In this document: positions 42,088 through 62,984 of the stretch, piece by piece
Position numbering within the stretch: the first letter of the stretch is position 1
Layout of the letters: each line of letters starts with the position of its first letter
Assembly: GCF_000379465.1 (NCBI RefSeq)
Contig: NZ_KB905392.1
Span: 248,001 to 312,000, forward strand
Origin: Sciscionella marina DSM 45152
GTDB lineage: Bacteria > Actinomycetota > Actinomycetes > Mycobacteriales > Pseudonocardiaceae
Direction of reading: 5' to 3'
DNA: 64,000 nucleotides
Notes under the pieces: model-generated
Told to the model about the DNA's origin: nothing
The model's input: only the letters and a program-made list of their open reading frames with translations
The model's database searches: none
Translations under genes and position numbers: made by a program

Positions 42088-42506
42088 TGACCACCGAGGC
42101 GACCGGGCAGGCGAGCGCACACGCTCCGAGGACGAACGACGCGGCGACACCCGGGCCGGGTCTCCCGTCCCCCGTCGAGGAGGTGCACGACGACCGGGGC
42201 GTTCCCCCGACCCCGACGCACTCCACCGAGGTACTCACCGCCGCAGGTGATCTGCTGCGCTCGCTCGCGGCCCCGGTGCGCATCGCGATCGTGCTCCAGC
42301 TGCGGGATTCGGCCCGCTGCGTGCACGAGCTCGTCGAGGCGCTCGGCGTGGCGCAGCCGCTGATCAGCCAGCACCTGCGAGTGCTCAAGGCCACCGGGGT
42401 CGTGTACGGGGAACGGCACGGCCGCGAGGTGATGTACCGCCTGGTGGACGACCACCTCGCGCACATCGTGGTGGACGCGGTGAGCCACGCCCAGGAGCAT
42501 CTATGA
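42087..42506 (+). CDS. smtB: ArsR/SmtB-family metal-sensing repressor
   Basis: 139 residues from ATG 42087 (ATG 42078 would add three residues but overlaps the -10). A 45-residue polar N-terminal tail, then a winged helix: [64 protein letters not shown]. The C-terminal helix [18 protein letters not shown] supplies His/Asp residues like the alpha-5 zinc site. In M. tuberculosis this gene (Rv2358) represses zur when zinc is low; the pair here is the same. Stop overlaps a repeat-encoded micro-ORF that leads into zur. Confidence 0.9.
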
Positions 42507-42568
42507 GCGAGCTCGCGAGCGAACCGTCGATACGGCGAGCTCGCGAGCGAAGGAGGGAGGGGCGATGA
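42503..42568 (+). repeat. Intercistronic repeat with a 21-codon micro-ORF between smtB and zur
   Basis: The 58-base spacer is filled by an element with a 17-bp direct repeat GCGAGCTCGCGAGCGAA (42507-42523 and 42535-42551). It reads as a micro-ORF of 21 codons, [12 protein letters not shown] then ARERRREGR. Its ATG overlaps the smtB stop (TATGA) and its TGA overlaps the zur ATG (CGATGAG). GGAGGGAGGGG near its end is the zur ribosome binding site. A related copy sits between cysD and cysN. Confidence 0.75.
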
Positions 42569-42966
42569 GTAGCCCCAAGGTCGGCCAGCGTTCGACGAAG
42601 CAGCGCGCCGCGATCACCGCGCTGCTCGAACAGGTCGAGGAGTTCCGCTCGGCCCAGGAGCTGCACGAGAAGCTGCGCACCACCGGCGCGGGCATCGGGC
42701 TGACCACCGTCTACCGCACGCTGCAGTCGCTCGCCGACGCCGGGGAGATCGACGTGCTGCACACCGCGAGCGGGGAGGCGACCTACCGGCGCTGCTCGGC
42801 CCATCACCATCACCACCTGGTGTGCCGCTCCTGCGGGCGCACCGTGGAGATCGAGGGCCCGGTCGTGGAGTCCTGGGCGCAGCGGGTCGCTGCCGAGCAC
42901 GGCTTCTCCGACATCGCGCACACCGTCGAGATCTTCGGCACCTGCTCGGACTGCCCGAGAGGTTGA
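42565..42966 (+). CDS. zur: Zinc uptake regulator Zur (Fur family)
   Basis: 133 residues from ATG 42565. Fur-family winged helix (STKQRAAITALLEQVEEFRSAQELHEKLR), hinge and dimerisation domain with HHHHHLVCRSCGR (His cluster plus CxxC) and CSDCPRG at the C-terminus, i.e. the structural zinc site of two CxxC pairs. Zinc-bound Zur should bind the boxes at 27296 and 27349 upstream of MRF and rpmB-rpmG. Partner of smtB in one operon. Confidence 0.95.
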   Translation: MSSPKVGQRSTKQRAAITALLEQVEEFRSAQELHEKLRTTGAGIGLTTVYRTLQSLADAGEIDVLHTASGEATYRRCSAHHHHHLVCRSCGRTVEIEGPVVESWAQRVAAEHGFSDIAHTVEIFGTCSDCPRG

Positions 42967-42967
42967 C

Positions 42968-44101
42968 ATGCGTACCGGCGCGGTGCTGCTCACGGCGATC
43001 CTGCTCGCCGGGTGCGACACCGCGAGCGAACCGTCGCCGGTACCGGGAACGGACTCCGCGCTGCGGGTCACCGAACTCGCCGGTGGCCTCGAACACGGCT
43101 GGGACATCGGCTTTCTGCCCAGCGGGGCACAGCTGATCACCGAGCGCCCCGGGAAGCTGGTCACGGTGACCGATGGTCAGGTGCGCCCGGTGCGCGCGGA
43201 GCTCGGCGATGTGTATGCCGTGGGTGAGGGCGGACTGCTCGGACTGGCACTCGACCCGGGCTTCGGCCGCAATCGCACCTTCTACACCTGCCAGGCGCAC
43301 GCCGAAGGCGGTTCCCCGGTCGATGTGCGGCTGGTGCGCTGGCGGCTGTCGCCCGACGAACGGTCCGCGCAACGGCTCGGCGACCTGCTCACCGGGCTTC
43401 CGCTCAACCCGGGCGGGCGGCACTCCGGCTGCCGGCCCACCTTCGCGCCGGACGGCATGCTGCTGGTCGGCACCGGGGACGCGGCACGCGCGGACGCCGC
43501 CCAGGATCGCCGCGGGCTGGGCGGCAAGGTACTGCGCATCGACCCGCGCACCGGGAAGGCGCCCGCGGACAATCCGTTCCCCGGCAGCCCGGTGCTCTCC
43601 TACGGTCACCGTAATGTGCAGGGTGTCGCGGTGCGCCCGGGCACCGGCCAGGTCTACCTCGCCGAGCACGGTCCGTCCTTCGACGACGAGATCAACCGGA
43701 ATGTTCCGGGCGGCAACTTCGGCTGGGATCCCGCCAAGGACGGCACCGAAGGCGGTTACGACGAGAGTGTCCCGATGACCGACACCGCGCGGTTCCCGGA
43801 CGCGGTGCGCCCGCTGTGGACATCCGGGCGGATCACCGAGGCGATCTCCGGCGCGACCTTCCTGTCCGGCCCCTCGTGGGGCGAGCTGAACGGCGCGCTG
43901 GCCGTGGTGGCGCTCAAGGGCCAGAAACTGCTGCTGTACCAGCTGTCCGGGGAGGGCGCGGTCGTCCGGGTGCGGCTGCCCGGGGTGCTGAACGAGTCGT
44001 ACGGGAGACTGCGCGCCGCCCGCACCGGTCCCGACGGCGCGCTCTATGTCACCACCTCGAACGGCGCGGACGACAAGCTGCTGCGCCTATCCCCCGTCTG
44101 A
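42968..44101 (+). CDS. Lipoprotein PQQ-type aldose sugar dehydrogenase
   Basis: 377 residues; start ATG is one base after the zur stop. Signal peptide and lipobox LLAGC (Cys at residue 16). Six-bladed beta-propeller of the GSDH/YliI class: GLEHGWDIGFLPSGAQLITERPG, GEGGLLGLALDPGFGRNRTFY, GHRNVQGVAVRPGTGQVYLAEHGPSFDDEIN. The motifs are stronger here than in the paralogue at 28783. Why it is tied so tightly to smtB-zur is not obvious; it could be zinc-responsive by co-transcription. It overlaps the convergent next gene by 15 bases. Confidence 0.9.
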   Translation: MRTGAVLLTAILLAGCDTASEPSPVPGTDSALRVTELAGGLEHGWDIGFLPSGAQLITERPGKLVTVTDGQVRPVRAELGDVYAVGEGGLLGLALDPGFGRNRTFYTCQAHAEGGSPVDVRLVRWRLSPDERSAQRLGDLLTGLPLNPGGRHSGCRPTFAPDGMLLVGTGDAARADAAQDRRGLGGKVLRIDPRTGKAPADNPFPGSPVLSYGHRNVQGVAVRPGTGQVYLAEHGPSFDDEINRNVPGGNFGWDPAKDGTEGGYDESVPMTDTARFPDAVRPLWTSGRITEAISGATFLSGPSWGELNGALAVVALKGQKLLLYQLSGEGAVVRVRLPGVLNESYGRLRAARTGPDGALYVTTSNGADDKLLRLSPV

Positions 44102-44506
44102 TTCCTCCACCAGGTCGCTGCGCAACTGGGACGCGGTGGACACCACCAGCATCAGCACCGTGCCGAGCGCGGGGGCCGCCAGTCCCTCGGCGGGGAAGGT
44201 GTACCGCAGGGTGATGTCGCTGCCCTTCTCGGTGCGCACCAGGCCGAGGGTGCCGAACATACCGTCCCCGGCGCGTTCGGCGAGCAACTCCGCCCGCTGC
44301 GGGTCATCGGGAAGGTCCCAGCCGACGACGCAGGTCAGCGAGAGCACCGCCAGCCCTTCGGCGAGCTGCATGGCCTGCAGGGCGCACGGCACCCCGGCGT
44401 GCTGGAAACTCAGCGCCCCGTCGTCGTCGGTGTGCACCTCGTGGTAGAGCTCGAGGGCTTCGCGGGCCGTCGCGAGCAAGGTCGCGGTGGTAGCCGCTTC
44501 GGTCAT
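44087..44506 (-). CDS. YbjN-like / secretion-chaperone-fold protein of unknown function
   Basis: 139 residues. An alpha/beta sequence without catalytic motifs ([32 protein letters not shown], then [19 protein letters not shown]) that resembles the YbjN or CesT/Tir chaperone-like fold common in actinobacteria; the assignment is tentative. Its start ATG overlaps the uppS stop (ATGA), so it is translationally coupled to isoprenoid synthesis. Confidence 0.65.
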
Positions 44507-45354
44507 CGCTCCTCCGTTCCGTCCGTACGGTCGGCCACCGTCTCACCGGTTCCGGTGACGGCATCGGTGGCACCGCCGAACCTGCGGTCACGCCGTGCGT
44601 ACGTCTCGCAAGCCTCCCACAGCCGCCTGCGGTCGTAATCGGGCCACAGCACGTCCTGGTAGACCATCTCCGCGTACGCCGACTGCCAGACGAGGAAATT
44701 CGAGGTCCGCCGCTCGCCTGAGGGCCGGACCAGCAGGTCCACATCGGGCATGTCCCGCTGGTACAGGTATTTGGCAACGGTGCGCTCGTCCACCCGGTTC
44801 GGGTTGAGCTCCCCCGCGGCGGCGCGCTTGGCGATCTCCCGTGCCGCGTCCCCGATCTCGGCGCGCCCGCCGTAGTTCACGCACATCGTCAGGTTCAGCA
44901 CGGTGTTCGACTCGGTGCGCTCCTGCGCGGCCTGCAGGGTGCGCACCACGCTGCCCCACAGTTTCGGCTTGCGGCCCGCCCAGCGGATGCGTACCCCCAT
45001 CTCGTCCAGTTCGTCCACCCGGCGCGCGATCACATCCCGGTTGAAGCCCATCAGGAAGCGCACCTCCTCCGGGCTGCGCCGCCAGTTCTCGGTGGAGAAG
45101 GCATACAGCGACAGCCAGCGGACACCGAGCTCCATGCAGCCCTTGGCGACGTCGAGCACGACCGCCTCGCCGCGCTTGTGCCCCTCGATGCGGGTCATTC
45201 CGCGCTGGTTGGCCCAGCGACCGTTGCCGTCCATGACGATGCCGATGTGGTCCGGGACGAACTCGGCGGGGATCGCGGGCGGGCGCGCACCCGAGGGATG
45301 CGGATCCGGTGGGCGCGCCGGTGCGCCGGTGCTCGTCGTCGGTGCCTTCGCCAT
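44503..45354 (-). CDS. uppS: Cis-prenyltransferase (undecaprenyl/decaprenyl diphosphate synthase)
   Basis: 283 residues from ATG 45354, preceded by AGGGAGGACC. Polar N-terminal extension of about 35 residues, then [17 protein letters not shown] with the catalytic Asp, [15 protein letters not shown], and C-terminal [26 protein letters not shown]. Makes the polyprenyl diphosphate carrier for peptidoglycan and arabinogalactan. Next to recO and era as in mycobacteria (Rv2361c); chain length cannot be told from sequence. Confidence 0.95.
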
Positions 45355-45374
45355 GGTCCTCCCTATGGTCGCTG

Positions 45375-46133
45375 CTACTCGCTCGTCGCCCGGGCGCGCG
45401 GTGCCCGGCGTTCGACGAGCGGCAACGAGCGTAGTTGGCGCTCCAGATGCCACTGCAACAGCGCGGCGACAAGGCCGGAGGATTCCCGGCGCGCGGCCTC
45501 GCTCGCCGCGTTCGCCACATCCCAGTCCCCGTGCAGCAGCGCGCCGAGCAGCGCAAGGGTGCCCGCGTCCGGGGTGACCGCCCCCGCGGGGCGGCAGCGC
45601 GAGCACACCGAACCGCCCGCGTTCACCGAGAACGCCGCGTGCGGGCCCTCGGCACCGCACCGGGCGCACTCCCGCACCGCCGTGGCCCAGCCCGCGAAGG
45701 CCATGGCGCGCAGCAGGAAAGCGTCCAGCACCAGGCCCGGTTCCCGGTCGGAGAAAGCCAGCGCCCGCAGCGCACCCACGAGCAGCAGGTACAGCCGCAT
45801 CGCCGGGGCGTCCTCCTCGACGACCAGCTTCTCCGCGGTCTCGATGATCGCGCAGGCCGAGGTGTAGCGGCCGTAGTCGCCGACGATGGGCGCGGCGAAC
45901 GCGTCCACGGTCTGCACCTGGGTGACGATGTCCAGAGTGCGCCCGGTGTGACACTGCAGGTCCACGTGGCAGAACGGTTCAAGCCGCGCGCCGAACCGCG
46001 AACTGGTCCGCCGCACTCCCTTCGCCACCGCCCTGATCTTGCCGTTCCGCCTGGTCAGCAGGGTGATGATGCGGTCGGCCTCGCCGAGCTTGTGCACCCG
46101 GAGAACCACACCGGTATCGCGGTACAAGCTCAC
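45375..46133 (-). CDS. recO: DNA repair protein RecO
   Basis: 252 residues. OB-fold N-terminus ([53 protein letters not shown]), helical C-terminal domain and zinc finger (ECARCGAEG and CSRC). Loads RecA with RecR onto SSB-coated DNA. Twenty bases upstream of uppS on the same strand; probably one operon. Confidence 0.95.
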
Positions 46134-46221
46134 GGTGTCTCCACACCGGCGCTCGTCCCCCGCCGCCTGTTCGCCCGCTCAGTCACCCGTCAATCATCGC
46201 ACCACCCACCGACGGTCCGGG

Positions 46222-46995
46222 TCACCACTGCCGCGGATGGCCACCCTGTTGCGGATATCCCTGCTGCTGGTGCGGGTGACCGGGCTGCGGGTATCCCTGC
46301 TGGCCGTAGCCGGGCTGGCCATAGCCCTGTTGGCCGTGACGCTGTTGCGGGTGGCCCTGTTGCGGATAGCCCTGCGGAACCGCCTGCTGCACCGGCTGGC
46401 CGTACACGACGAGCGTGTTCATCCACTTGTCACCGAAGGTGCGCACCTGCGGGTCGCTGTTGGCCATGATGAAACCGATCGCGAAGATGCCGTCGATGAC
46501 ATGGCAGAACTCACGCGCGATCGTGGTGCCGAGTCCCGGGGGCCTGCCGGTTCCGGCGTCCACGAGGATGAGTCCCTTCGACTTCTTGCCGATGCTGGCC
46601 CCGGTCGAGCCCTGCAGGAACCACCGATTCCAGTACAGCAGCCCGATCGAGGCGATGAAGAAGATGATCCCGATGACGAGCAGGGCGGCCGAGCTGAAGA
46701 GCCCGGTGATCAGGAAAACGAATCCGAGCACCAGCGCCGCGTAGCTGATCAGCGCGTCGATGAGGTAGGCACCGGCCCGGTCGCCCCAGGTCGCGATGGT
46801 GCCGGGCGCTCCCTGCTGCCCGCCATAGACCGCCTGCTGCTGGTAACCCTGCTGATAGCCGTGCTGCGGATAGCCCTGCTGGCCGTACCCCTGCTGTGGA
46901 TACCCGGGCTGCTGGTACTGCTGCGGTTGCCCGCCGTATCCCGGTGGCATCTGCTGTCCGTACTGCTGCGGCCCCTGGCCGTACGGATTGGTCAT
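46222..46995 (-). CDS. RDD-family membrane protein with Gln/Tyr/Gly/Pro-rich tails
   Basis: 257 residues from ATG 46995 with AAGGGGAG upstream. N-terminal tail of about 65 residues made of (P)QQGY-type repeats (GYPQQGYGQQGYPQHGYQQGY), a central RDD domain with three or four membrane helices (ATWGDRAGAYLIDALISYAALVLGFV, GASIGKKSKGLILVD), then a second tail with the same composition (QQGYGQPGYGQQGYPQPGHP). RDD function is unknown; ion or small-molecule transport is suspected. Tails on both sides are unusual. Confidence 0.88.
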   Translation of the reverse strand: MTNPYGQGPQQYGQQMPPGYGGQPQQYQQPGYPQQGYGQQGYPQHGYQQGYQQQAVYGGQQGAPGTIATWGDRAGAYLIDALISYAALVLGFVFLITGLFSSAALLVIGIIFFIASIGLLYWNRWFLQGSTGASIGKKSKGLILVDAGTGRPPGLGTTIAREFCHVIDGIFAIGFIMANSDPQVRTFGDKWMNTLVVYGQPVQQAVPQGYPQQGHPQQRHGQQGYGQPGYGQQGYPQPGHPHQQQGYPQQGGHPRQW

Positions 46996-47110
46996 CGGTG
47001 TACTCCCCTTCGATCGCCGCGCCCCCGACATCACGGCGCGAGTTCACGCGGCAGGGTACCCCGGCCGATCCGGACATGACGTACGCGACCGCCCGAATCG
47101 GTGACACCGC

Positions 47111-48010
47111 CTAGAAACCGAGTTTGCGCAGCTGTTTCGGATCGCGCTGCCATTCCTTGGTCACCCGCACGTGTAAGTCGAGGTAGACCTTGGAGCCGAG
47201 CAGCGTCTCGATCTGACGGCGCGCCTTCTGGCCGACCTCGCGCATCCGCGAACCGCCCTTGCCGAGCACGATCGCCTTCTGCGACTGGCGTTCCACGTGC
47301 ACCGAGGCGTAGATGTCGAGCATGTCGTCGCGTCCCTCGCGGGGCAGCATCTCCTCGACGGTCACCGCGATCGAGTGCGGCAGCTCGTCGCGCACCCCGT
47401 CCAGCGCGGCCTCGCGCACCAGTTCGGCGATCAGGGTCTGCTCGGGCTCGTCGGTGAGTTCCCCGTCCGGGTACAGCTGCGGCCCCTCGGGCAGCTGTCC
47501 GACCAGCAGATCGGCGAGCACCCCGGTCTGGAATCCGTCCACCGCGCTGACCGGGACGAGTTCGGCGAACTCCATGAGTTCCTGCATCCGCAGCAGCTGC
47601 TCGGCGACCACCGGCTTGTCCACCAGGTCGGTCTTGGTCACCACACCGAGCACGGGGGTCCGCTTGGCCACCCCGCGCAGCTGCTCGGCGATGAACCGGT
47701 CGCCGGGGCCGAGCTTGGCGTCGGCCGCGACACAGAAACCGATCACATCCACTTCGGACCAGGTTTCCAGCACCACCTCGTTGAGCCGCTTACCGAGCAG
47801 CGTGCGCGGGCGGTGCAGCCCCGGGGTGTCCACGATGATCAGCTGCGCGTCCGGCCGGTGCACGATGCCCCGGATCGCGTGCCGTGTCGTCTGCGGTTTG
47901 TCGGATGTGATGGCGACCTTGCTGCCGACGAGCTCATTGGTGAGCGTGGACTTCCCCGCGTTGGGGCGTCCGACGAAGCAGGCGAAACCGGAACGGTGCA
48001 TGCCGGGCAT
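47111..48010 (-). CDS. era: GTPase Era
   Basis: 299 residues from ATG 48010 (a Met three codons in is the alternative). G1 [10 protein letters not shown] near residue 13, G2/switch TTRHAIRG, G3 DTPGLHRP, G4 TKTDLV; C-terminal KH domain with [18 protein letters not shown] and ending QLRKLGF. Assists 30S assembly by binding the 3' end of 16S rRNA. Its start shares one base with the ClC stop (TAATG), so it is translationally tied to the transporter. Confidence 0.97.
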
Positions 48011-49779
48011 TATCTCCCGCCGGTAGCCACCGCCGTTTCCGGGAGCGCCGCGAGCACCGTGCGGTGGGTGATCCAGCCGACGAGTTCGTGCGCTTTCTCG
48101 TCCAGCACGGGAATCCCGCTCGCGTCCACTTCCACGAGGGCGTCCAGTGCCGCATCGAGTGAGGCGTCCGCGGTGACCGTCGGCGGATGCTGGGCGAGAT
48201 CCGCGAGGCAGGAACGCTGAGCTTCCTGATCGAGGGCCTCGGCGACCGCGCGGGCGGTCACGCAGCCGTGGTACTGCTCGTCTTCGCCGATCACCGGTGC
48301 GGCACCGTTCGCGGACAACAGCAGCTCGCGCGCGGCTTCCTCGAGCGGGGTCTGGGCGGGCAGCGGTTCGGGAAGCGGTTCCATCACCGTGCCGACGGCC
48401 CGGCCGCCGAACCGGCGCGGATGGTCCAGCCGGACGCCGCGGCGGGTGAGCTTGAAGGTGTAGATCGTGTCCCCGGACAGTCTCCTGGAGACCACCGTGG
48501 CGAGCACGATCGCGAGCATGAGCGGCAGGATGATCGAGTACTCGCCGGTGAGCTCGAACAGCACGATGATCCCGGTGATCGCCGCGCGGGTGGCCCCGGC
48601 GAAGGCGGCGCCCATGCCGATCAGCCCGTACAGTCCCGGACTTCCCGCCCCGGGGACGAGCTGATCGGCGAGGATACCGAATGCCGTCCCGGACATCGCC
48701 CCGATGAACAGCGAGGGCGCGAACACCCCGCCCGAGCCGCCGATGCCGATGGTCAGCCCGGTGGCCAGGATCTTGCCCGTGGCCAGGGCGAGCAGCAGCC
48801 ACAGGCCGAACCGCCCGTCCATGGCGTGCTGCATCACCGGATAGCCGACCCCGTACATCTGCGGCAGCACCAGGAGCAGCCCGCCGAGCAGCAGTCCGCC
48901 GATCGCGGGGCGCAGCCACTCGGGACCGCGCCAGAGCCAGTCGCACGCGTCCTCGATCAGGTACAGCAGCCGGGAGAACGCCACCCCGACCATCCCGACC
49001 ACCAGACCGAGCAGGGCGAAGAGCAGGTACTGATAGGCGTGGTGGATGTGCAGCTTCGGCAGGTCCAGGAACGGATGGTCGCCGAGCATCGCCCGGCCGA
49101 TGACGCTCGCCGTAACGCTGGAGAGCACCACCGCGCCGAAGGCCCGCGCCGCGAAGTCCCGCAGGATCAGCTCCATCGCGAAGAACGGCCCGGCCAGCGG
49201 AGCGTTGAAGGTCGCGGCGATCCCGCCCGCGGCACCGCAGGCGACGAGCACCCGCAGCCGGGCCTCGGGGATCCGGGTGAGTCTGCCGATCGTGGATCCC
49301 CATGCGGAGCCGATCTGCACGATCGGGCCTTCCCTGCCCACCGAACCGCCACCACCGATGCACAGCGCGGAGGCGAGCGCCTTGACCACGGTGACCTGCG
49401 GGGCGATCCGCCCACCACGCTCGGCGACCGCGTACATCACCTCGGGCACCCCGTGCCCGCGCGCCTCGGGGGCGAACTTGTTCACCAGCGGCCCGTAGAT
49501 CAGCCCGGCCACGACCGGGGCGAACAGCACGAAATACGGGCCGAGCCAAGGCACCAGCCCGTTGGCGGCGTGCCCGGCATCGGAATAGTCGGCGTGCCCG
49601 GAGAGCACTCTGGTCACGGCGCTGATCAGCCAGCGGAACCCCACCGCACCGATCCCCGCGCCCGCACCGATCAGCACGGCCAGCACGACGAGCCCTCCGG
49701 TGCGTTCGGCGATCCATGCACGCAGCGGTACCCGCCCGGGAACCGCGAGCGACCAACGACGTCCGGCGGCTTCACTCAC
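48010..49779 (-). CDS. ClC-family chloride/proton transporter with CBS pair
   Basis: 589 residues from GTG 49779; an in-frame ATG at 49803 would overlap the MarR operator. About 11-12 membrane helices with the ClC selectivity motifs: GGGGSVGREGPIVQIG (gating Glu in GREGP), GSGGVFAPSLFIG, and GLYGLIGMGAAFAGATRAAITGIIVLFELTG. C-terminal cytosolic CBS pair (TVMEPLPEPLPAQTPLEEA; GCVTARAV; PVLDEKAHELVGWIT). The gating Glu suggests an H+/Cl- antiporter. Placed immediately upstream of era and divergent from a MarR gene. Confidence 0.92.
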   Translation of the reverse strand: MSEAAGRRWSLAVPGRVPLRAWIAERTGGLVVLAVLIGAGAGIGAVGFRWLISAVTRVLSGHADYSDAGHAANGLVPWLGPYFVLFAPVVAGLIYGPLVNKFAPEARGHGVPEVMYAVAERGGRIAPQVTVVKALASALCIGGGGSVGREGPIVQIGSAWGSTIGRLTRIPEARLRVLVACGAAGGIAATFNAPLAGPFFAMELILRDFAARAFGAVVLSSVTASVIGRAMLGDHPFLDLPKLHIHHAYQYLLFALLGLVVGMVGVAFSRLLYLIEDACDWLWRGPEWLRPAIGGLLLGGLLLVLPQMYGVGYPVMQHAMDGRFGLWLLLALATGKILATGLTIGIGGSGGVFAPSLFIGAMSGTAFGILADQLVPGAGSPGLYGLIGMGAAFAGATRAAITGIIVLFELTGEYSIILPLMLAIVLATVVSRRLSGDTIYTFKLTRRGVRLDHPRRFGGRAVGTVMEPLPEPLPAQTPLEEAARELLLSANGAAPVIGEDEQYHGCVTARAVAEALDQEAQRSCLADLAQHPPTVTADASLDAALDALVEVDASGIPVLDEKAHELVGWITHRTVLAALPETAVATGGR

Positions 49780-49800
49780 TATTGCATTATGAAACCATTG

Positions 49801-49813
49801 CACATGACATGTG
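49801..49813. promoter_or_regulatory. Palindromic operator between ClC and MarR genes
   Basis: CACATG-A-CATGTG is a perfect 6-1-6 palindrome in the 69-base divergent spacer. It lies 24 bases upstream of the -10 of the MarR gene and 22 bases from the ClC start. Most simply the binding site of that MarR protein. Confidence 0.6.
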
Positions 49814-49836
49814 TACGTGAGCTTCCCGACATGGGG

Positions 49837-49849
49837 TAAAACGGTGCCG
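49837..49849 (+). promoter_or_regulatory. Putative leaderless promoter of the MarR gene
   Basis: TAAAAC (49837-49842) is followed by six bases and GTG 49849; no ribosome binding site. Confidence 0.4.
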
Positions 49850-50325
49850 TGACCAACCCCGTTGATGACGACACGGACATCGATGCCGTCACCGATGCGA
49901 TGCTGACCGCCTCGCGGCTGCTGATCGCCATCTCGGCGCGCAGTATCGCCTCCGTCGCGGACTCGCTGACGCTTCCGCAGTTCCGGCTGTTGGTCGTGCT
50001 GGCGAATGGCGGGGCGACGAAACTGGTCACGCTCGCCGAGCAGCTGGGGGTGAATCCCTCGACGGCGACCCGCACGGTGGACCGGCTGATCTCCTCGGGA
50101 ATGGTCACCCGCGAGGCGAATCCGGCCTCGCGAAGGGAGACCCTGTTGCGCCTTTCCCCAGAGGGCGAGCGGGTCGTGCGGCGGGTGACCTCGCAGCGGC
50201 GCACCGAGATCGCCGAGATCGTGGCCCGGATGCCCGCGGCCGAGCGCGCCGGATTCGTCGAGGCGCTGTGGTCGTTCGCCCGCGCGGGTGGCGAACCGCC
50301 CGCGGGCAACCGGGTGGGGCTATAG
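49849..50325 (+). CDS. MarR-family regulator divergent to ClC transporter
   Basis: 158 residues from GTG 49849. Winged helix LPQFRLLVVLANGGATKLVTLAEQLGVNPSTATRTVDRLISSGMVTREANPASRRETLLRLSPEG. Divergent arrangement and the CACATG palindrome suggest control of the ClC gene, and through coupling perhaps of era. Inducer unknown. Its end overlaps the convergent next gene by six bases. Confidence 0.92.
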   Translation: MTNPVDDDTDIDAVTDAMLTASRLLIAISARSIASVADSLTLPQFRLLVVLANGGATKLVTLAEQLGVNPSTATRTVDRLISSGMVTREANPASRRETLLRLSPEGERVVRRVTSQRRTEIAEIVARMPAAERAGFVEALWSFARAGGEPPAGNRVGL

Positions 50326-51959: not shown

Positions 51960-51965
51960 GGCAGG

Positions 51966-52496: not shown

Positions 52497-53554
<1,058 letters not shown>

Positions 53555-53801: not shown

Positions 53802-53865
53802 AGACGATTGACGACCGAGTACCGGCGAGCGCTCTCCGCGGGCAGGGGCCGGGAAACGAAGGAGG

Positions 53866-54912: not shown

Positions 54913-56081
54913 CGGTGCTTGGCGCGCAGCCGGGAGAACAGGCCGTGTCCGCCGCGGCCGTTCACGGCCAGTTCCGGCTGCTCCTCGCCGCGCAGTTCGG
55001 CGAGCTGGCGGAGCAGTTCGCTCTGTTTGGCGTCCAGTTTGGTCGGAACCAGGACCTCGAGGTGCACGTGCAGGTCGCCGTAGCCGTCGACCCGCCCCGA
55101 GGAGCGCAGCCGCGGCATGCCCTTGCCGTTCAGCACCAGCTCGGTGCCCGGCTGGGTGCCCGGTTCGATGTCGAGCTCCTCGACCCCGTCCAGGGTCTCG
55201 AGCGGAACTGTCGTGCCGACGGCGGCCGCGGTCATCGGCACCCGCACCACGCAGTGCAGGTCGGCTCCATCGCGCTCGAACACCTCGTGCGGCTTCTCCG
55301 CCACCTCGACGTACAGGTCACCGGCCGACCCGCCACCCGGCCCGACCTCGCCCTGATCGGCCATCCGCACCCGCATGCCGTCGCCGACTCCGGGCGGCAT
55401 CTTCACGGTGATCGCGCGCCGCGAGCGGACCCGTCCGTCGCCCGCGCACTGCCCGCAGGGATGCTCGATGACCTCGCCGAAACCGTGGCAGACCGGGCAC
55501 GGCCGGGCGGTGACCACCTGGCCGAGGAAGGAACGCTGGACGTTCTGCACCTCGCCGCGGCCCGCGCAGGTGTCACAGGTCCGGGTGCCGCTGCCCTCAC
55601 TGGTCCCGGCGCCCCGGCACTTGTCGCACAGCACGGCGGTGTCCACGGTGAGTTCGCGCTCCACCCCGCTCGCACACTCCTCGAGGGAGAGCTCCATACG
55701 GATGAGCGCGTCCGAACCGGGCTGGGTCCTGCTGCGCGGTCCGCGGCCGCGTGCGGCTCCGCCACCCGAGGCCGCGCCGAAGAAGGCGTCCATGATGTCG
55801 CCGAGCCCGCCGAATCCGGCGAACGGGTCACCACCCCCGCCGCCACGCATACCGCCCATGGCACCGTCCAGCGGATCCCCGCCGAGGTCGACCACCTGGC
55901 GCTTCTGCGGGTCGGAGAGCACCTCGTACGCCTCGGTGACCTCGCGGAACCGTTCCTGTGCCGCATCGTCCGGGTTCACATCCGGGTGCAGCTCACGGGC
56001 CAACTTGCGGTACGCGCGCTTGATCTCGTCGGCGCTCGCGTCCTTGCGCACGCCGAGCGTGCCGTAGTAGTCCCTGGCCAC
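54909..56081 (-). CDS. dnaJ: Chaperone DnaJ (DnaJ2 type)
   Basis: 390 residues. J domain with HPD ([11 protein letters not shown]), Gly/Phe-rich linker ([22 protein letters not shown]), four zinc CxxCxGxG repeats ([32 protein letters not shown]) and the C-terminal substrate-binding domains. Hsp40 co-chaperone of DnaK. As in mycobacteria this copy (DnaJ2) is linked to hrcA instead of dnaK. A stable hairpin lies between the hrcA stop and its start. Confidence 0.97.
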
Positions 56082-56115
56082 GTTCTCCCAGTCCTCCTGA
56101 TTGCCTGCGTTCCCC

Positions 56116-56141
56116 CATCCAGTGTGCCTGCACTGGATGGA
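56116..56141 (-). promoter_or_regulatory. Hairpin between hrcA and dnaJ
   Basis: CCATCCAGTG / CACTGGATGG, 10 perfect pairs around TGCCTG, in the 83-base spacer. No U-run follows on the minus strand, so a processing or attenuation site that sets the hrcA:dnaJ ratio is as likely as termination. Confidence 0.5.
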
Positions 56142-56164
56142 CTTGCCGAACCCGGCTCATTCAC

Positions 56165-57196
56165 TCACCGGCCGGCGAGGATCCGCCCCACGTAGTTGGC
56201 GACCGCGCGAACCGCGGCCATGGTGCCCGGGTAGTCCATTCTCGTCGGACCGACCACGCCCATCCCACCGAGCAGCGAGCCGTCGGCACCGTAGCCGATG
56301 GAGACCACCGCGGTGTTGCGCATCTCGGCGGGCTCGATCTCCCCGCCGATCCGCACCGAGATGATATCCGGATCCTGTGCCGCGGCGAGCAGTTTGAGCA
56401 GTACGACCTGCTCCTCGAGCGCTTCCAGCACCCCGCGCAGCGAGCCGGGGAAATCGGCGACGTTGCGGGTCAGGTTCGCGGTCCCGCCGAGCACGATGCG
56501 CTCCTCCGGGTGCTCGATGAGTGCCTCGACGAGCACGGTCGAGATCCGGACCATGACATCGCGCAGCTCCGGGGGCACCTGCTCGGGCAGCTCGGCGAGC
56601 TTGGTCGCGGCATCGGTGAGCCGTTCCCCGGCGAGCGCGGAGTTCAGCTGCGCGCGAACCCGGGACACATCGTCCTCGGACAGCACGTCACCGAGGTCGA
56701 CGAGCCGCTGATCCACCCGCCCGGTGTCGGTGATCGAGACGAGCATCAGCCGCGCCGAGGTGATCGAGACGACCTCGATGTGCCGCACGCTCGAGCGGGT
56801 GAGCATGGGGTACTGCACCACGGCGACCTGCCTGGTCAGCTGCGCGAGCAGGCGCACGCTGCGGCGCAGCACGTCCTCGAGGTCGATCGCGCCGCCGAGC
56901 ACGGTGTCGATGGCCCTGCGCTCGGGTTCGGAGAGCGGCTTGAGCTCGGCGAGCCGGTCCACGAACTGCCGGTAGCCCTTGTCGGTCGGGATACGCCCGG
57001 CACTCGTGTGCGGCTGGGCGATGTAGCCCTCCTCCTCCAGCGCGGCCATGTCGTTGCGGACGGTCGCGCTGGATACGCCGAGGTTGTGCCGGTCCACGAT
57101 CGCCTTCGACCCGACCGGTTCCTGATCGGAGACGTAGTCGGTGACGATCGCGCGTAGCACCTCGAACCTGCGCTCGTCGGTATTCACGGTCCCCAT
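56165..57196 (-). CDS. hrcA: Heat-inducible repressor HrcA
   Basis: 343 residues from ATG 57196, the same length as the mycobacterial protein. N-terminal winged helix ([53 protein letters not shown]), GAF-like middle and a conserved C-terminus ([27 protein letters not shown]). Binds CIRCE elements at groE and similar genes. No CIRCE (TTAGCACTC with its inverted copy) is visible upstream of hrcA here, so its own operon seems not to be autoregulated through that site. Confidence 0.96.
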
Positions 57197-57211
57197 TCTA
57201 CGGACAGCAGC

Positions 57212-57240
57212 GGCCCCCACCGGGATTTCCGGCGGGGGCC
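57212..57240 (-). terminator. Hairpin between the DUF gene and hrcA
   Basis: GGCCCCCACCGG / CCGGCGGGGGCC, 12 bp with one mismatch around GATTT. It would separate the small membrane-protein gene from hrcA. Confidence 0.5.
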
Positions 57241-57260
57241 ACGCTATTCGTGCCAGGCGA

Positions 57261-57644
57261 TCACGCGGCCGTGGCGTACTCCCGGACCTCGAGCTGGTGC
57301 ACGACCCGTTCGGTGCGCGCTTCGTGCACCACCAGGTCGACGACGCCGATCGCGAGGATCGCGAGGGCGTCCGCGAACACCAGCCAGGTCATCGCGGTCC
57401 CGCTGAACACGAGAGCCGCGATGAGCGACCACGCAGCGACGACACCGAGGGTGGCGCCACCGATCCGCGCGTCGAGACGGCCCGAAGCGAGTGCGCCCAC
57501 GGCGGCTGCGACGAGCACCGCGGTCGAGACGCCGAAGCCCAGCCAGCCGGTGGCTCCCGCACCGAACGCCATCGTGGCGACGATGAGGAATGCGCCACCG
57601 AGCACGGCGAGCATGTCTACGACGAAACGAGCACTGATCTTCAT
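57261..57644 (-). CDS. Small four-helix membrane protein, unknown function
   Basis: 127 residues from ATG 57644 with the ribosome binding site GGAGGTG; the longer frame is rejected. Four predicted membrane helices ([84 protein letters not shown]) and a short polar tail. Resembles small SPW-repeat-like actinobacterial membrane proteins, without a recognised family. Sits between hemW and hrcA, bounded by a hairpin on the hrcA side. Confidence 0.75.
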
Positions 57645-57802
57645 TTCCGCACACCTCCACAGAGTTCGTAGACGGTGTGAGTCGGAGGTCGGGGAATCGC
57701 TTTCGCGGTCCCGGGGCCGGCGGCTCAACGCCGATTAATTAGCACACCTAAGTAATAGCTCCCTGAGAGTTCGCCCGCAAGAGATCAAGACTGTCTGCTC
57801 GG

Positions 57803-59017
57803 TCACCCGGCATCGGCGAGCCGGGTGGCCAGGCCGTCCGCGAGCAGCCTGCCCTGTGGGGTGAGCACGGCCACTCCGTCCCCGATCCGCAGCAGTCCTT
57901 CGGCCACCGCCGCCTGCGCCTCCCGCACTCCCCGCTCGTCCAGCACATCGAGGGCAAGCCCGTCCGCACAGCGCAATTCCAGCAGCACCCGCTCGAAACG
58001 GCGCTGCGTCCCGGTCAGTACCTCGCGCCCGGCAGCCGGGGAGCGCCCCTCGCCGAGCAGCGCGGCGTAGCGGGCGGGGTGCTTGACGTTCCAGAACCGG
58101 GTGCCGCCGATGTGCGAGTGCGCCCCGGGCCCGGCGCCCCACCAGTCCCCGCTGCGCCAGTAGATCAGGTTGTGCGCGCACCGCGCGGATTCCGTGCCCG
58201 CCCAGTTCGACACCTCGTACCAGTGCAGACCGGCGGCCGCGAGCTGCGCGTCGATGAGCTCATAGCGGTCGGCGAGCACATCCTCGTCCGGGGCGGGCAA
58301 CTGACCACGCGCCACTTTGCGCGCCATCGCGGTGCCGTCCTCCACGATCAGCGAATAGGCCGAGACATGGTCCACCCCGGCCTCGAGCACCGCGTCGAGC
58401 GAGGCGCGCAGATCCGTGTCCCGCTCCCCCGGGGTGCCATAGATCAGGTCCAGGTTCACGTGTTCGATCCCGGCCGCCAGCGCCTCCTTGGCCGCGGCGA
58501 CCGGACGCCCCGGGGTGTGCGCGCGCTCCAGTACCGCGAGCACGTGCCGGGCCGTGGACTGCATACCGAGCGAGACCCGCGTGTATCCGGCCTCGGCGAG
58601 CCCGGCGAAAAATTCCGGGGAGGTCGACTCCGGGTTCGATTCGGTGGTCACCTCGGCGTGCTCGGCGAGCCCGAAGCTGCCGCGTACCGCATCGAGCACC
58701 TGGCCGAGCCCGTCCGCTCCGAGCAGCGAGGGGGTGCCCCCGCCGACGAACACCGTCTCGGCGCGCGGCGGAGCACCGAGCACCCGCGCGGCGAGCGCGA
58801 GTTCGGCCCGCAAACCCTCCAGCCAGGTCTGCGGGGAGGCGGCGCCGTCCAGCTCGGTCGGGGTGTAGGTGTTGAAATCACAGTAACCACAGCGACTCGC
58901 GCAGAACGGCACATGTACGTACACCCCGAACGGCCGTGTCCCGAGACCGGCGAGCGCGGACTCCGGCAGTCGCCCGTCGCGCGGCGCTGGTTCGCCCTCG
59001 GGCAGCACGGATGGCAA
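57803..59017 (-). CDS. hemW: Heme chaperone HemW (radical SAM)
   Basis: 404 residues from TTG 59017, which has GAGGAG seven bases upstream; no ATG fits, and the longer frame is rejected. Radical SAM site CASRCGYCDFNTY (CxxxCxxC) near residue 42, then GGGTPSLLG and SLGMQS. HemW-type proteins insert heme; many are misnamed HemN. It lacks the extra N-terminal Cys of true HemN-type oxidases. Linked to the hrcA region and the sulfite reductase operon as in M. tuberculosis (Rv2388c). Confidence 0.92.
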   Translation of the reverse strand: MPSVLPEGEPAPRDGRLPESALAGLGTRPFGVYVHVPFCASRCGYCDFNTYTPTELDGAASPQTWLEGLRAELALAARVLGAPPRAETVFVGGGTPSLLGADGLGQVLDAVRGSFGLAEHAEVTTESNPESTSPEFFAGLAEAGYTRVSLGMQSTARHVLAVLERAHTPGRPVAAAKEALAAGIEHVNLDLIYGTPGERDTDLRASLDAVLEAGVDHVSAYSLIVEDGTAMARKVARGQLPAPDEDVLADRYELIDAQLAAAGLHWYEVSNWAGTESARCAHNLIYWRSGDWWGAGPGAHSHIGGTRFWNVKHPARYAALLGEGRSPAAGREVLTGTQRRFERVLLELRCADGLALDVLDERGVREAQAAVAEGLLRIGDGVAVLTPQGRLLADGLATRLADAG

Positions 59018-59135
59018 ATCGGTCTCCTCTGGTCGCTTGCGGTGCGGATATGCCCGGCGCAACCCTCTGCCGCACCGTGATCCCACGATGCGGATAAGGC
59101 TCGCTCACCGAACAGACGCGTGGCACGCTTTCCCC

Positions 59136-59234
59136 ATGATCTCGCTGTCCGTCTGGCTCGTCGTGCGCAGGCACGTCGATTATCAGCGAGTGTCCAGCGC
59201 GCTCTGCCCGCGCGTCTGCCTTCCCGGCGCCTGA
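59136..59234 (+). CDS. Short leader peptide of the sulfur assimilation operon
   Basis: 32 residues from ATG 59136. The core VVRRHVDYQRVSSALCPRVC matches the pattern of actinobacterial leader peptides upstream of sulfur genes (R-x-HVD-x-x-R-x-x-SALC). Two Cys codons occur near the end (TGC at residues 24 and 28), followed by PGA and stop. It lies 101 bases before the sulfite reductase start. Ribosome stalling at the Cys codons under cysteine shortage could regulate downstream genes. Too short for normal gene finding; coding is inferred from the motif. Confidence 0.7.
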   Translation: MISLSVWLVVRRHVDYQRVSSALCPRVCLPGA

Positions 59235-59335
59235 GCTCCCGGTCGAATTCCGCGATCCCGGTTCAGCTCCGGTCCAGCTGCCCGGAAGTTTCCGCCCGCC
59301 GCCGCACCCTGCCGCAGTGAACCGCGAGGAATCCC

Positions 59336-61057
59336 ATGGCCCCCACCACGACAGCCCCAGAGCAGACCGCGAACAAGCCCGCGGCCAAGCCAGCGAAGCC
59401 CAAGCAACGCCGAGGCGAAGGCCAATGGGCACTCGGCTACCGCGAGCCGCTGAACCCGAATGAGCGCTCCAAGAAGGACGACAACCCGCTGCACGTCCGC
59501 GAGCGCATCGAGACCATCTACGCGCACCGCGGGTTCGACGCCATCGATCCCGGTGACCTGCGCGGTCGGTTCCGCTGGTTCGGCCTCTACACGCAGCGCA
59601 GGCAGGGCATCGACGGCGGCCGCACCGCCACCCTCGAGCCCGAGGAACTCGACGACTCGTACTTCATGCTGCGGGTGCGCATCGACGGCGGAGCCCTGAC
59701 CACCGAGCAGCTGCGGGTGATCGGGGAGATCTCCGAGACCTATGCCAGGGACACCGCGGACATCACCGACCGGCAGAACGTGCAGCTGCACTGGATCCGC
59801 ATCGAGGATGTCCCGGCGATCTGGCAGAAGCTCGAAGCCGTCGGCCTGTCCACCACCGAGGCCTGCGGGGACTGCCCGCGCGTGATCCTCGGCTCCCCCG
59901 TCGCCGGGATCGCCGCGGACGAGATCATCGACGCCACCCCGGCCGTCGAGGAGATCACCCGCCGCTACATCGGCGACGAGAGCCTGTCCAACCTGCCGCG
60001 GAAGTTCAAGACCGCGATCTCCGGGTCACCGCGCCAGGACGTGGTGCACGAGATCAACGACGTGTCGTTCATCGGCTCGGTGCATCCCGAGCACGGCCCC
60101 GGTTTCGACGTGTGGGTAGGCGGTGGCCTGTCCACGAACCCGAAGATCGCCCAGCGCCTCGGAGTGTGGGTCTCCCTCGAGGACGTGCCCGAGGTGTGGC
60201 ACGGCGTGGTCCAGATCTTCCGGGATTACGGCTACCGCAGGCTGCGTCATCGCGCCCGGATCAAGTTCCTGATCGCCGACTGGGGTGTGGAACGCTTCCG
60301 CGAGGTTCTGGAAACCGAGTACCTGAACCGGAAACTCGCGGACAACGCGGCACCGGAGATCTACACCGGGGCGCGCGACCACCTCGGCGTGCATCCGCAG
60401 ACCGACGGGCGCAACTACCTCGGCGTCTCCACCATCGCCGGGCGGGTCTCCGGTTCGATCCTGCAGAACGTGGCCAAGGCTGCGGAACGGGCCGGTTCCC
60501 AGCGGATCCGGACCACGGTGGAACAGAACCTGCTCGTGCTGGACGTGGAATCGGCCGAACTGGACGGGTTGAGCGCGGAGCTCGATTCGCTCGGCCTGCA
60601 GGCGAGTCCCTCTCCGTGGCGCCGCGGTGTCATGGCGTGCACCGGTATCGAGTTCTGCAAGCTCGCGATCGTGGAGACCAAGCGGCGAGCCGCGGACGCC
60701 GTGCTCGATCTGGAGCACAGGCTCGCCGATGTCAACGCCGAGCTCGAACACCCGATCACCCTCAATCTCAACGGCTGCCCCAATGCGTGCGCGCGTACCC
60801 AGGTCGCCGATATCGGGCTGAAGGGCCAGATCGTCACCGATGCCGAGGGCAGGCAGGTCGAGGGTTTCCAGGTGCACCTCGGTGGAACACTCGGCGTGGA
60901 CGCGGGTTTCGGCCGCAAGGTGCGCGGTCTCAAGGTGACCAGTGCCGAGGCGGTGGACTACGTGGAGCGCGTCGTGCGGCGCTATGTCGCCGCCCGTGAA
61001 CCAGATGAGCGATTCGCCACCTGGGTCGCCCGTGCTTCGGATGATGAACTGAAATGA
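59336..61057 (+). CDS. sirA: Ferredoxin-dependent sulfite reductase
   Basis: 573 residues. Two ferredoxin-like NIR_SIR repeats and siroheme/4Fe-4S domains. The cluster cysteines are in ACTGIEFCKLA (C-x5-C) and LNGCPNACAR (C-x3-C). RQNVQLHWIRIEDVP near residue 145 and STTEACGDCPRV; LYTQRRQG carries the Tyr that in mycobacterial SirA is cross-linked to the Cys of the ACGDCPR segment. Reduces sulfite to sulfide for cysteine synthesis. First enzyme gene of the operon, with a leader peptide upstream. Starts with a Lys/Pro/Ala-rich 30-residue tail. Confidence 0.95.
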   Translation: MAPTTTAPEQTANKPAAKPAKPKQRRGEGQWALGYREPLNPNERSKKDDNPLHVRERIETIYAHRGFDAIDPGDLRGRFRWFGLYTQRRQGIDGGRTATLEPEELDDSYFMLRVRIDGGALTTEQLRVIGEISETYARDTADITDRQNVQLHWIRIEDVPAIWQKLEAVGLSTTEACGDCPRVILGSPVAGIAADEIIDATPAVEEITRRYIGDESLSNLPRKFKTAISGSPRQDVVHEINDVSFIGSVHPEHGPGFDVWVGGGLSTNPKIAQRLGVWVSLEDVPEVWHGVVQIFRDYGYRRLRHRARIKFLIADWGVERFREVLETEYLNRKLADNAAPEIYTGARDHLGVHPQTDGRNYLGVSTIAGRVSGSILQNVAKAAERAGSQRIRTTVEQNLLVLDVESAELDGLSAELDSLGLQASPSPWRRGVMACTGIEFCKLAIVETKRRAADAVLDLEHRLADVNAELEHPITLNLNGCPNACARTQVADIGLKGQIVTDAEGRQVEGFQVHLGGTLGVDAGFGRKVRGLKVTSAEAVDYVERVVRRYVAAREPDERFATWVARASDDELK

Positions 61058-61095
61058 TTGTCCGGACAATGCACCGAGGCAATGTCCGGACAATT
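61057..61095 (+). promoter_or_regulatory. Double palindrome/long hairpin after sirA
   Basis: ATTGTCCGGACAAT (61057-61070) is a perfect palindrome that begins on the sirA stop codon. A near-copy follows at 61081-61094 with exactly 24 bases between starts. Together they also fold as one 16-bp hairpin (one mismatch) around ACCGAGG, followed by TCTTCG. Either a partial terminator reducing expression of the downstream genes or a paired protein-binding site. Confidence 0.6.
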
Positions 61096-61118
61096 CTTCG
61101 CGATGAGGAATCCCTATA

Positions 61119-61271
61119 ATGGAACGCGCGGCACCGTTTTATTGTCCGTACTGCGGTGAAGAGGATTTGATGCCGAGGGAAGATCCGCGTGGCGCCTGGC
61201 GTTGTGAGTCGTGCAGGCGCGTTTTTTCGGTGAAACTTGTCGGCCTGAGCGTGACCGAGGTGAACTCATGA
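61119..61271 (+). CDS. Small zinc-ribbon protein in the sulfur operon
   Basis: 50 residues from ATG 61119 with GAGGA upstream. MERAAPFYCPYCGEEDLMPR opens the protein, and CESC follows near residue 29, giving two CxxC pairs 17 residues apart: a classic zinc ribbon. A similar short protein sits between sulfite reductase and cysH in streptomycetes (from memory). It may be a redox or assembly accessory. Stop overlaps the cysH start (ATGA), so it is translationally coupled. Confidence 0.85.
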   Translation: MERAAPFYCPYCGEEDLMPREDPRGAWRCESCRRVFSVKLVGLSVTEVNS

Positions 61272-61963
61272 CCACGATGGAAACCGCACGGTTGCGGGAG
61301 ATCGCCGAGGAGGGCGCGGCACTCGGCGAAATCGGCGCCGACGCTGCTATGCGTTGGGTGGCCGAAACTTTCGGTGACGATTTCATCATCGCTTCGAATA
61401 TGCAGGACGCGGTGCTCATCGATGTGGCTGCGCGCACCAAACCGGATTTCGACGTGCTTTTCCTCGAAACCGGATATCACTTCGCCGAAACCATCGGGGT
61501 ACGGGACGCGGTCGATCTGATCTACCCGGGCGTGCGCATCGTCAACGCGGCCGCCGAACAATCGGTCGCCGAGCAGGAGGCACAGTACGGCAAGCTCAAC
61601 CAGACCGCCCCGGACCGCTGCTGCCAGCTGCGCAAGGTGGTTCCGTTGCAGCGCACGCTTTCCCGCTATTCGGCCTGGGTGACCGGGGTACGCAGGGTGG
61701 ACGCGCCGACCAGGGCGCAGACTCCGATCGTGGGCTTCGACGAGCGCAACGGGCTGGTCAAGGTGAACCCGATCGCGGCGTGGACCGACGAGGAGTTCCG
61801 GGAGTACATCGAGGCGAACGGCGTCCTGGAGAACCCGCTCGTCGCGGAGGGGTACCTGTCCATCGGCTGCGCGCCGTGCACCGCGAAGGTCGCGCCGGGC
61901 GCCGATCCGCGCAGCGGCCGCTGGGCGGGCCAGACGAAGACGGAATGCGGGTTGCACGGATGA
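61268..61963 (+). CDS. cysH: Adenylylsulfate (APS) reductase
   Basis: 231 residues from ATG 61268; the longer frame lies in the zinc-ribbon gene. PP-loop-like fold (DDFIIASNMQDAVLIDVAA), cluster Cys pairs RCCQLRK (near residue 120) and IGCAPCT (near residue 204), and the catalytic Cys in the terminal ECGLHG. The CC...CxxC pattern marks the 4Fe-4S APS-reducing type. Produces sulfite for sirA. Its last bases overlap the cysD start (ATGA). Confidence 0.96.
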   Translation: MTTMETARLREIAEEGAALGEIGADAAMRWVAETFGDDFIIASNMQDAVLIDVAARTKPDFDVLFLETGYHFAETIGVRDAVDLIYPGVRIVNAAAEQSVAEQEAQYGKLNQTAPDRCCQLRKVVPLQRTLSRYSAWVTGVRRVDAPTRAQTPIVGFDERNGLVKVNPIAAWTDEEFREYIEANGVLENPLVAEGYLSIGCAPCTAKVAPGADPRSGRWAGQTKTECGLHG

Positions 61964-62904
61964 CCACCGAGACGATCGAAGAAGGCAAGATCATCGACGA
62001 GGACGCGCCCGTCGTCGCGGACAACATCGAGGCGCTCGAGTCCGAGGCGATCCACATCTTCCGTGAGGTGGCCGGGGAGTTCGACCGGCCGGTGATCCTG
62101 TTCTCCGGCGGCAAGGACTCCACGGTGCTGCTGCACCTGGCGATCAAGGCGTTCTGGCCCGCCCCGGTCCCGTTCCCGCTGCTGCACGTGGACACCGGGC
62201 ACAACTTCCCCGAGGTGCTCGAGTTCCGGGACCGGATGGTGGACCGGCACGGGCTGCGGCTGGTCGTCGCGAAGGTGCAGGACTACATCGACGACGGGCG
62301 GCTGAGCGAGCGGCCGGACGGCACCCGTAACCCGCTGCAGACAGTCCCGCTGCTGGACGCGATCAACGAGAACCGCTTCGACGCGGTGTTCGGCGGCGGC
62401 CGCCGGGACGAGGAGCGCGCCCGGGCGAAGGAGCGGATCTTCAGCCTGCGCAACGCGTTCGGCCAATGGGAACCGCGCAGACAGCGGCCCGAGCTGTGGA
62501 ACCTGTACAACGGAAGGCACTCCGCCGGTGAGCACGTGCGAGTGTTCCCACTGTCCAACTGGACCGAGGCCGATGTCTGGCGCTACATCGAGCGCGAGGA
62601 CATCGAACTGCCCTCGATCTACTTCGCACACACCCGCGAGGTGTTCGCCCGCGACGGCATGTGGCTGACCGCCGGTCCCTGGGGAGGCCCGCGCGAGGGC
62701 GAGACCGTGCACCGCAAACAGGTCCGGTACCGGACCGTCGGGGACGGCTCCTGCACCGGGGCGGTCGAGTCCGGCGCCGATGACGTGGCCTCGGTCATCG
62801 CCGAGGTCAGCGCGTCCCGGCTCACCGAACGCGGCGCGACGAGGGCGGACGACCGGATCTCGGAGTCCGCGATGGAGGACCGCAAACGGGAAGGGTACTT
62901 CTGA
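61960..62904 (+). CDS. cysD: Sulfate adenylyltransferase subunit 2
   Basis: 314 residues from ATG 61960. PP-loop FSGGKDSTVLLHLAIKAF near residue 49, LLHVDTGHNFPEV, FGGGRRDEERARAKERIFS and the conserved C-terminal MEDRKREGYF. With CysN it makes APS from sulfate and ATP. Followed by the second copy of the intercistronic repeat element before cysN. Confidence 0.97.
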   Translation: MTTETIEEGKIIDEDAPVVADNIEALESEAIHIFREVAGEFDRPVILFSGGKDSTVLLHLAIKAFWPAPVPFPLLHVDTGHNFPEVLEFRDRMVDRHGLRLVVAKVQDYIDDGRLSERPDGTRNPLQTVPLLDAINENRFDAVFGGGRRDEERARAKERIFSLRNAFGQWEPRRQRPELWNLYNGRHSAGEHVRVFPLSNWTEADVWRYIEREDIELPSIYFAHTREVFARDGMWLTAGPWGGPREGETVHRKQVRYRTVGDGSCTGAVESGADDVASVIAEVSASRLTERGATRADDRISESAMEDRKREGYF

Positions 62905-62906
62905 TC

Positions 62907-62984
62907 ATGAGCGAGCTCTGCAGCGAATCATCGATACAGCGCCCGCGCGAAGCGCCGAGCTCCCCCGGGGAGCGAGTGCGATGA
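62907..62984 (+). repeat. Intercistronic repeat with a 25-codon micro-ORF between cysD and cysN
   Basis: Second copy of the element seen at 42503. Its first 12 bases are identical to that copy and the next 22 are about 75% alike (including TCGATAC). It reads MSELCSESSIQR then PREAPSSPGERVR and stop; the ATG is three bases past the cysD stop (TGATCATGA) and its TGA overlaps the cysN ATG (CGATGAG). GGGGAG near the end serves as the cysN ribosome binding site. Confidence 0.75.

Follow-up and report, generated by a model that had tools for sequence, protein, structure and literature searches.

Related spacers at the smtB-zur and cysD-cysN junctions

We analysed a 64,000-nt stretch of the Sciscionella marina DSM 45152 genome (contig NZ_KB905392.1, positions 248,001 to 312,000; hereafter the window), in which two unrelated operon junctions are occupied by short spacers with similar sequence. 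The genes and spacers at both junctions are on the plus strand. The first spacer (copy 1, 42503..42568) is located between an ArsR-family regulator gene (smtB-like, 41991..42506, Pfam HTH_5) and a FUR-family gene (zur-like, 42565..42966, Pfam FUR). It reads as a micro-open reading frame (micro-ORF) of 21 codons, whose ATG overlaps the TGA stop of the smtB-like gene and whose own TGA overlaps the zur-like ATG at 42565. The second spacer (copy 2, 62907..62984) is full length, belongs to the type I subfamily described below, and separates cysD (61960..62904, Pfam PAPS_reduct) from cysN (62981..64000, Pfam GTP_EFTU, continuing past the window end). Its 25-codon micro-ORF, with the translation MSELCSESSIQRPREAPSSPGERVR followed by the stop codon, begins 2 nt past the cysD stop and overlaps the cysN ATG at 62981 with its TGA. 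The 3' end of both copies is GCGATGAG, preceded by a G-rich sequence resembling a Shine-Dalgarno (SD) motif: GGAGGGAGGGG in copy 1 (42552..42562), just 5' of the zur ATG, and GGGGAGCGAG in copy 2 (62967..62976), 5' of the cysN ATG. Copy 1 also contains two exact copies of the 17-nt repeat GCGAGCTCGCGAGCGAA (42507-42523 and 42535-42551, span 42507..42551). The original prediction had described related repeats at these two junctions, with micro-ORFs of 21 and 25 codons that touch or nearly touch both neighbouring genes and supply an SD-like sequence to the next one, and the sequence bears this out. The core sequence was found nowhere else in the window.

Based on the genome-wide analysis below, we conclude that these spacers very probably represent a miniature mobile element with RTGA start codons (ATGA or GTGA) as its insertion sites, which would relay ribosomes to the downstream gene. 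In the cysD-cysN operon, the cysH-cysD junction (window 61960-61963) is a direct ATGA stop/start overlap, a vacant target of the same kind.

Copy number, empty sites and distribution

The genome of the window (G000) is 8.54 Mb in 86 contigs. A genome-wide search with an 18-nt core, allowing up to three mismatches, gave 186 + 201 matches, against 83 + 84 for the reversed-pattern control. Ten places carry the core without a mismatch, and eight of them read AGCGAATCATCGATACAG. In an alignment of 13 copies the mean column identity is 86% over 79 columns. A sequence-only model built from these 13 copies (R1) found 90 matches in the genome at E ≤ 1, 63 at E ≤ 0.01 and 30 at E ≤ 8e-11. The absence of further copies had been named in the original prediction as an outcome that would speak against a mobile repeat; the matches are numerous, and the core is far above its control. 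Most copies are 78 or 81 nt long counting both RTGA edges, or about 74-77 nt net. Two subfamilies can be distinguished. Type I, to which both window copies belong, starts mostly with ATG and has the 3' part GAGCTCCCNCAGGGAGCGAG; type II starts mostly with GTG and has the 3' part GCCGAGCGYCAGCGAGGTGCGG.

Evidence for insertion comes from a close congener (G001), in which the element is missing at 18 of 19 tested G000 sites and the flanks are joined at an RTGA start codon. Three of these elements lie in a 17-kb stretch of G000; all three are missing in G001, where the flanks join at one ATGA. Over the four alignment blocks of this stretch the two genomes share 93-96% identity, and 95-96% in the two largest. 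For 16 further sites, mosaic queries consisting of 75 + 75 nt of flank fused at the RTGA were searched in G001. All 16 sites were located, with 79-96% identity per stretch (12 of them at 91% or more), and 15 have no element, with RTGA at the junction. At the 16th site (L031), G001 has an apparent in-frame fused remnant, MSELGSESSRPAGHAQRLAELG. Copy number also differs between the congeners: at one type II site, G000 has one copy and G001 two. In another genus represented by seven genomes, one site of the genome G020 (L217) is empty in six of six congeners.

Both window junctions are empty in other genera. We read 32 of 80 cysD-cysN loci; the CysN start could be recognised at 31 of these junctions, and none of the 31 shows the element. 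In a metagenome-assembled genome of Actinomycetospora the junction reads TTC TGATC ATGAGTGACCTG, and in the window TTC TGATC, the element and then ATGAGCGACCTT. The smtB-zur junction was read in 14 other genera; 13 have a direct -4 overlap without the element (one with TTG), and in the 14th the genes are apart. The smtB-zur insertion is shared with G001, where it is full length and is accompanied by a second micro-ORF of 12 codons. Copy 1 is 12 nt shorter, in frame, than that full-length copy. Because G001 shares the insertion at full length, copy 1 probably predates the split of the two species and was later shortened.

We then read 66 matches of the window's genome in context, namely 58 of the 63 matches at E ≤ 0.01 and eight weaker ones, with tandem neighbours counted separately; the remaining five (at L009, L012, L017 and L338) were read by eye. 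Through one or more -4 overlaps, 52 of the 66 reach an ORF of at least 60 codons, and 11 fuse in frame with the downstream protein. An upstream coding-like ORF ends in or beside the same tetranucleotide in 29 rows (at L032 and L196 the script chose a stop slightly upstream). In the other rows the copy occupies a start codon without such an overlap, belongs to a tandem, or forms a fusion with the protein that follows. The element had been proposed to be intercistronic; this describes both window junctions, and the sites as a whole are start codons in general.

Outside the species, R1 at E ≤ 0.01 detected the element in 20 of 60 relatives (the window's genome included), 17 of 36 within the same family and 3 of 24 outside it. 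A second model (R2) was built from 33 copies and used at E ≤ 1e-4, with filtering under which weak matches drop out. In the order, 76 of 249 genomes were positive, distributed over 26 of 69 genera; in the class, 17 of 296 were positive. We read 28 loci from four families (f1, f8, f15 and f16). The best CysD relatives suggest that f1 is Pseudonocardiaceae, and f8 is probably Mycobacteriaceae. All 28 loci have a coupled frame of 25-26 codons, 22 with an upstream stop overlap, and three of them (L273, L274 and L278) look like one orthologous site. A further 26 loci from f8, f15, f22, f23, f27 and f31 (all 15 new loci of the class scan and 11 of 22 from the f8 scan) comprise 23 coupled and three fused copies. 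Together, the loci read with this geometry come from eight families. An exact 23-letter pattern from the 5' part of the element gave no match in viral contigs.

The known repeats that the element resembles most closely in description are mycobacterial interspersed repetitive units (MIRUs), which enter DTGA sites. Their first description is reportedly that of Supply et al. in 1997. Excerpts of three papers describe insertion of MIRUs at start codons with -4 nt coupling of a small ORF (PMC12548453), a size of 40-100 bp with tandem repetition and variable copy number (PMC2734929), and a class I MIRU that constitutes an entire 77-nt 5' untranslated region (PMC4128351). Insofar as these excerpts define a MIRU, the element agrees: it is a dispersed repeat of the same size class, is located at start codons with a small ORF that overlaps the next gene by 4 nt (as a matter of geometry), stacks in tandem and varies in copy number, and 77 nt is also the start-to-start distance of type II and of most G020 copies. 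The copies could thus be true MIRUs, that is, diverged members of one homologous family shared with mycobacteria. We consider this possible, on balance doubtful. With filters that can miss weak matches, R2 reaches 13 of 151 genomes and 4 of 31 genera in family f8, with 10 of the 13 genomes from one genus; the f8 genus g42 has no match in its 14 genomes listed in the class scan and a single match, at 8e-5, in one genome of the order scan. The comparison with MIRUs is by description only, and the element was read in eight families, of which one is taken as mycobacterial. It differs further from the described MIRUs in that in-frame N-terminal fusions are common (11 of 66), and near-neutral change of the peptide (see below) and 18 empty sites between two congeners are documented here.

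Target sequence, genomic placement and conservation

The repeat at the two edges of a copy comprises at least TGA and, for type II, the full RTGA. The left and right R of type II copies agree (21 G/G, 7 A/A and 2 G/A; Fisher p 1.8e-5, tandem copies included); type I edges are uninformative for R, since 34 of 40 are A/A. The extent of the duplication is stated in this way because left and right R agree in type II and not in G020.

The empty sites have one feature in common, the RTGA at a start codon, and insertion within genes would disrupt them. It could therefore be argued that the element inserts at random into any RTGA and that copies at start codons alone survive, the others being harmful or lost. 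The window contains 763 RTGA sites, of which 92 are non-coding and 9 are stop/start overlaps (genes were predicted by a simple script). Random insertion followed by survival where harmless predicts mostly non-coding copies, yet coupling or fusion to an ORF that follows is seen in 63 of the 66 copies; targeting, or active retention, is thereby favoured and we regard purely random insertion as unlikely. The loose test for a downstream ORF was passed by 63/66 copies and 272/730 window RTGA sites (binomial 1e-23), and the upstream test by 29/66 copies and 27/730 sites (binomial 3e-24); tandem copies are not independent in either test.

The DNA and the overlap, rather than the peptide starting MSEL, are what the element conserves. 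Counted by codon position, departures from the type I consensus number 121, 164 and 109 at positions 1, 2 and 3. Of these, 99 are synonymous and 295 nonsynonymous, where 97 and 297 would be expected (p 0.82); type II has 135 and 325 against 121 and 339 (p 0.14). Ten insertions shared by G000 and G001 were noted, and seven were used after exclusion of three with unequal length or a start that was not aligned; they give a pN/pS of 0.92 from 57 changes at a mean divergence of 11%. At five of the seven, the element is more diverged than the readable flanks (three of fourteen flank values were spoiled by indels). The near-neutral substitution pattern in the window's subfamily indicates that the peptide is not retained on account of its sequence. 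Other families show the motif in a different reading frame (MSERSERI vs MSELASES), still with the overlap at the end. The overlap is likewise preserved across start-to-start distances of 62, 71, 74, 77 and 89 nt, and copies of 72, 75 or 78 nt continue in frame into the next gene or copy. Of 50 coupled copies, 49 have an SD-like 4-mer a short distance 5' of the following start codon, compared with 29 of 50 host flanks and a chance expectation of 0.11. Of the conserved MSEL micro-ORF in the original prediction, then, the DNA and the overlap were confirmed, and the peptide varies almost neutrally in the window's subfamily and is read in another frame elsewhere.

These results also bear on the idea that the spacers are regulatory leader peptides or attenuators, which short translated-looking ORFs directly 5' of zur, cysN and similar genes might suggest. 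It is very improbable: genes of unrelated kinds follow one and the same element, the peptide of type I changes neutrally, an RNAalifold analysis of 13 copies yielded no conserved hairpin and 12 weak pairs, of which one has a two-sided change, folds of three single sequences had z from -0.9 to 0.7, and neither peptide nor structure was found to be conserved with the function of the next gene, the mild synonymous excess being confined to G020. Since a 3' hairpin (GCTCCC/GGGAGC) can be seen in type I but not beyond it, we did not build on it.

Proposed insertion mechanism, fusions and tandem arrays

We propose that the element enters, in sense orientation, an RTGA that carries a start codon and is often already overlapped by an upstream stop. 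Insertion would leave RTGA (at least TGA) at each edge and, between the edges, a frame of 25-26 codons with an SD-like motif near its 3' end. Ribosomes would enter the micro-ORF either on terminating at the upstream gene or by initiating at the original start site of the host; after translating it they would terminate within the RTGA overlap and begin again there with the downstream gene. Since translation would pass through the element, the insertion would be nearly silent and the element could accumulate in operons; since each copy again ends in RTGA, further copies could stack in tandem. Movement is presumably brought about by a trans-acting enzyme. As for the mobile coupling cassette that had been predicted, dispersal, empty sites and the two-sided overlap support it; translation of the micro-ORF and re-initiation are suggested by the sequence anatomy.

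Several observations weigh against this interpretation. Ribosomes might start on the downstream gene independently, at the SD of the element. Three of the 66 copies were classed as broken: one couples to an ORF of less than 60 codons, and the other two, which stand in tandem, stop at a TAG located a few bases short of the following GTG. The downstream-ORF test is a loose one in GC-rich DNA. With regard to the empty sites, L042 and L043 carry indels of 6 and 16 nt adjoining the junction, L217 differs by two bases between filled and empty, and at 6 of 18 sites the filled and empty states do not have the same bases in the three positions preceding RTGA, somewhat above the expectation from overall divergence. 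In G020 the edge base R does not agree between left and right (p 0.60), and the peptide shows a mild synonymous excess (52 synonymous and 77 nonsynonymous changes vs 40 and 89 expected, nominal p 0.02). A mobilising enzyme was not found, and Y1_Tnp is absent from seven copy-rich genomes.

The last point concerns the repeats derived from REP/RAYT and IS200/IS605 elements, which are short and orientation-specific and have no inverted terminal repeats. The element is similar in all these respects (inspection by eye shows no inverted repeats at the termini, the edges have a short fixed sequence, and there is a single orientation relative to genes), so that a resident Y1 (RAYT) transposase could be imagined to move it. 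This, too, has very little likelihood. Y1_Tnp gave no match in G000, G001, G005, G010, G020, G031 and G032, which are all the genomes with at least 12 element matches among the 60. It is found in 9 of the 60 genomes; of these, G006 and G029 hold one or two weak element matches and G055 holds five by R2. Its absence from the copy-rich genomes contradicts a resident mobiliser and leaves a past, visiting enzyme as the form in which the idea could apply. The conserved palindrome or hairpin of REP sequences was not found by RNAalifold or in the single folds either. Enterobacterial RU elements are described, in an excerpt, as small intergenic mobile repeats that can encode peptides and are similar to miniature inverted-repeat transposable elements (PMC2759123). 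Peptide coding is shared with the element; as far as that excerpt goes, the element differs in its position at start codons and has no terminal inverted repeats by eye. In searches of open-licence papers, no listed title or abstract opening described this repeat in this family, and stretches of the element or peptide matched one unrelated primer paper.

Our preferred reading, a miniature mobile element at RTGA start codons, would make this a second case of mobile DNA hidden in translational coupling, occurring in several families and so far not linked to MIRUs by sequence. We tentatively extend it to a class-wide superfamily of start-codon-seeking miniature elements, with MIRUs as one mycobacterial branch; in this extension, which is conceivable rather than probable, an enzyme or process that recognises RTGA start contexts would insert the elements, in place of random insertion and selection, the copies would relay ribosomes, and truncated copies would repeatedly become N-terminal extensions of ordinary enzymes. 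The before/after pairs between two close genomes make the silence of an inserted micro-cistron testable. The system also opens to experiment by what means the target, a start-codon tetranucleotide, is located and how N-terminal protein segments are born from insertions. For annotation, many 25-codon ORFs 5' of actinobacterial genes may be mobile elements and not functional peptides.

The in-frame fusions are found in front of diverse proteins. Element-derived N-termini precede Pfam domains of alanine dehydrogenase/PNT, Asp/Glu racemase, isochorismatase (two), ROK, response regulator, short-chain dehydrogenase, FolB and ABC ATPase. Truncated copies form N-terminal extensions of conserved proteins (including FolB, MurI-like Asp/Glu racemase and alanine dehydrogenase) at L195, L199, L200, L331, L334, L336, L339 and L347. 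The insertion at L036 (G000:C1:646866-646941) occupies an ATGA that precedes the probable start of the gene and may belong to a leader ORF; its frame now continues into the gene. A 30-nt repeat from the 5' part of the element (SEFTSESSIQ/SEFTSESSAQ) is multiplied in frame at several downstream N-termini, as in L009 (G000:C68:64775-64833), L017 (G000:C86:87307-87410) and L338 (G000:C1:913967-914095); at the L009 site G001 is shorter by 42 nt. Elsewhere in the window (46235-46920), degenerate 15-nt repeats are found in a minus-strand ORF (46222-47034), the ends of which are rich in Q, G, Y and P. Triple tandem arrays of the element are present at G010:C3:221709-221932 and at L335 (G000:C13:237095-237319), with potential for strain typing similar to that of variable number tandem repeats.

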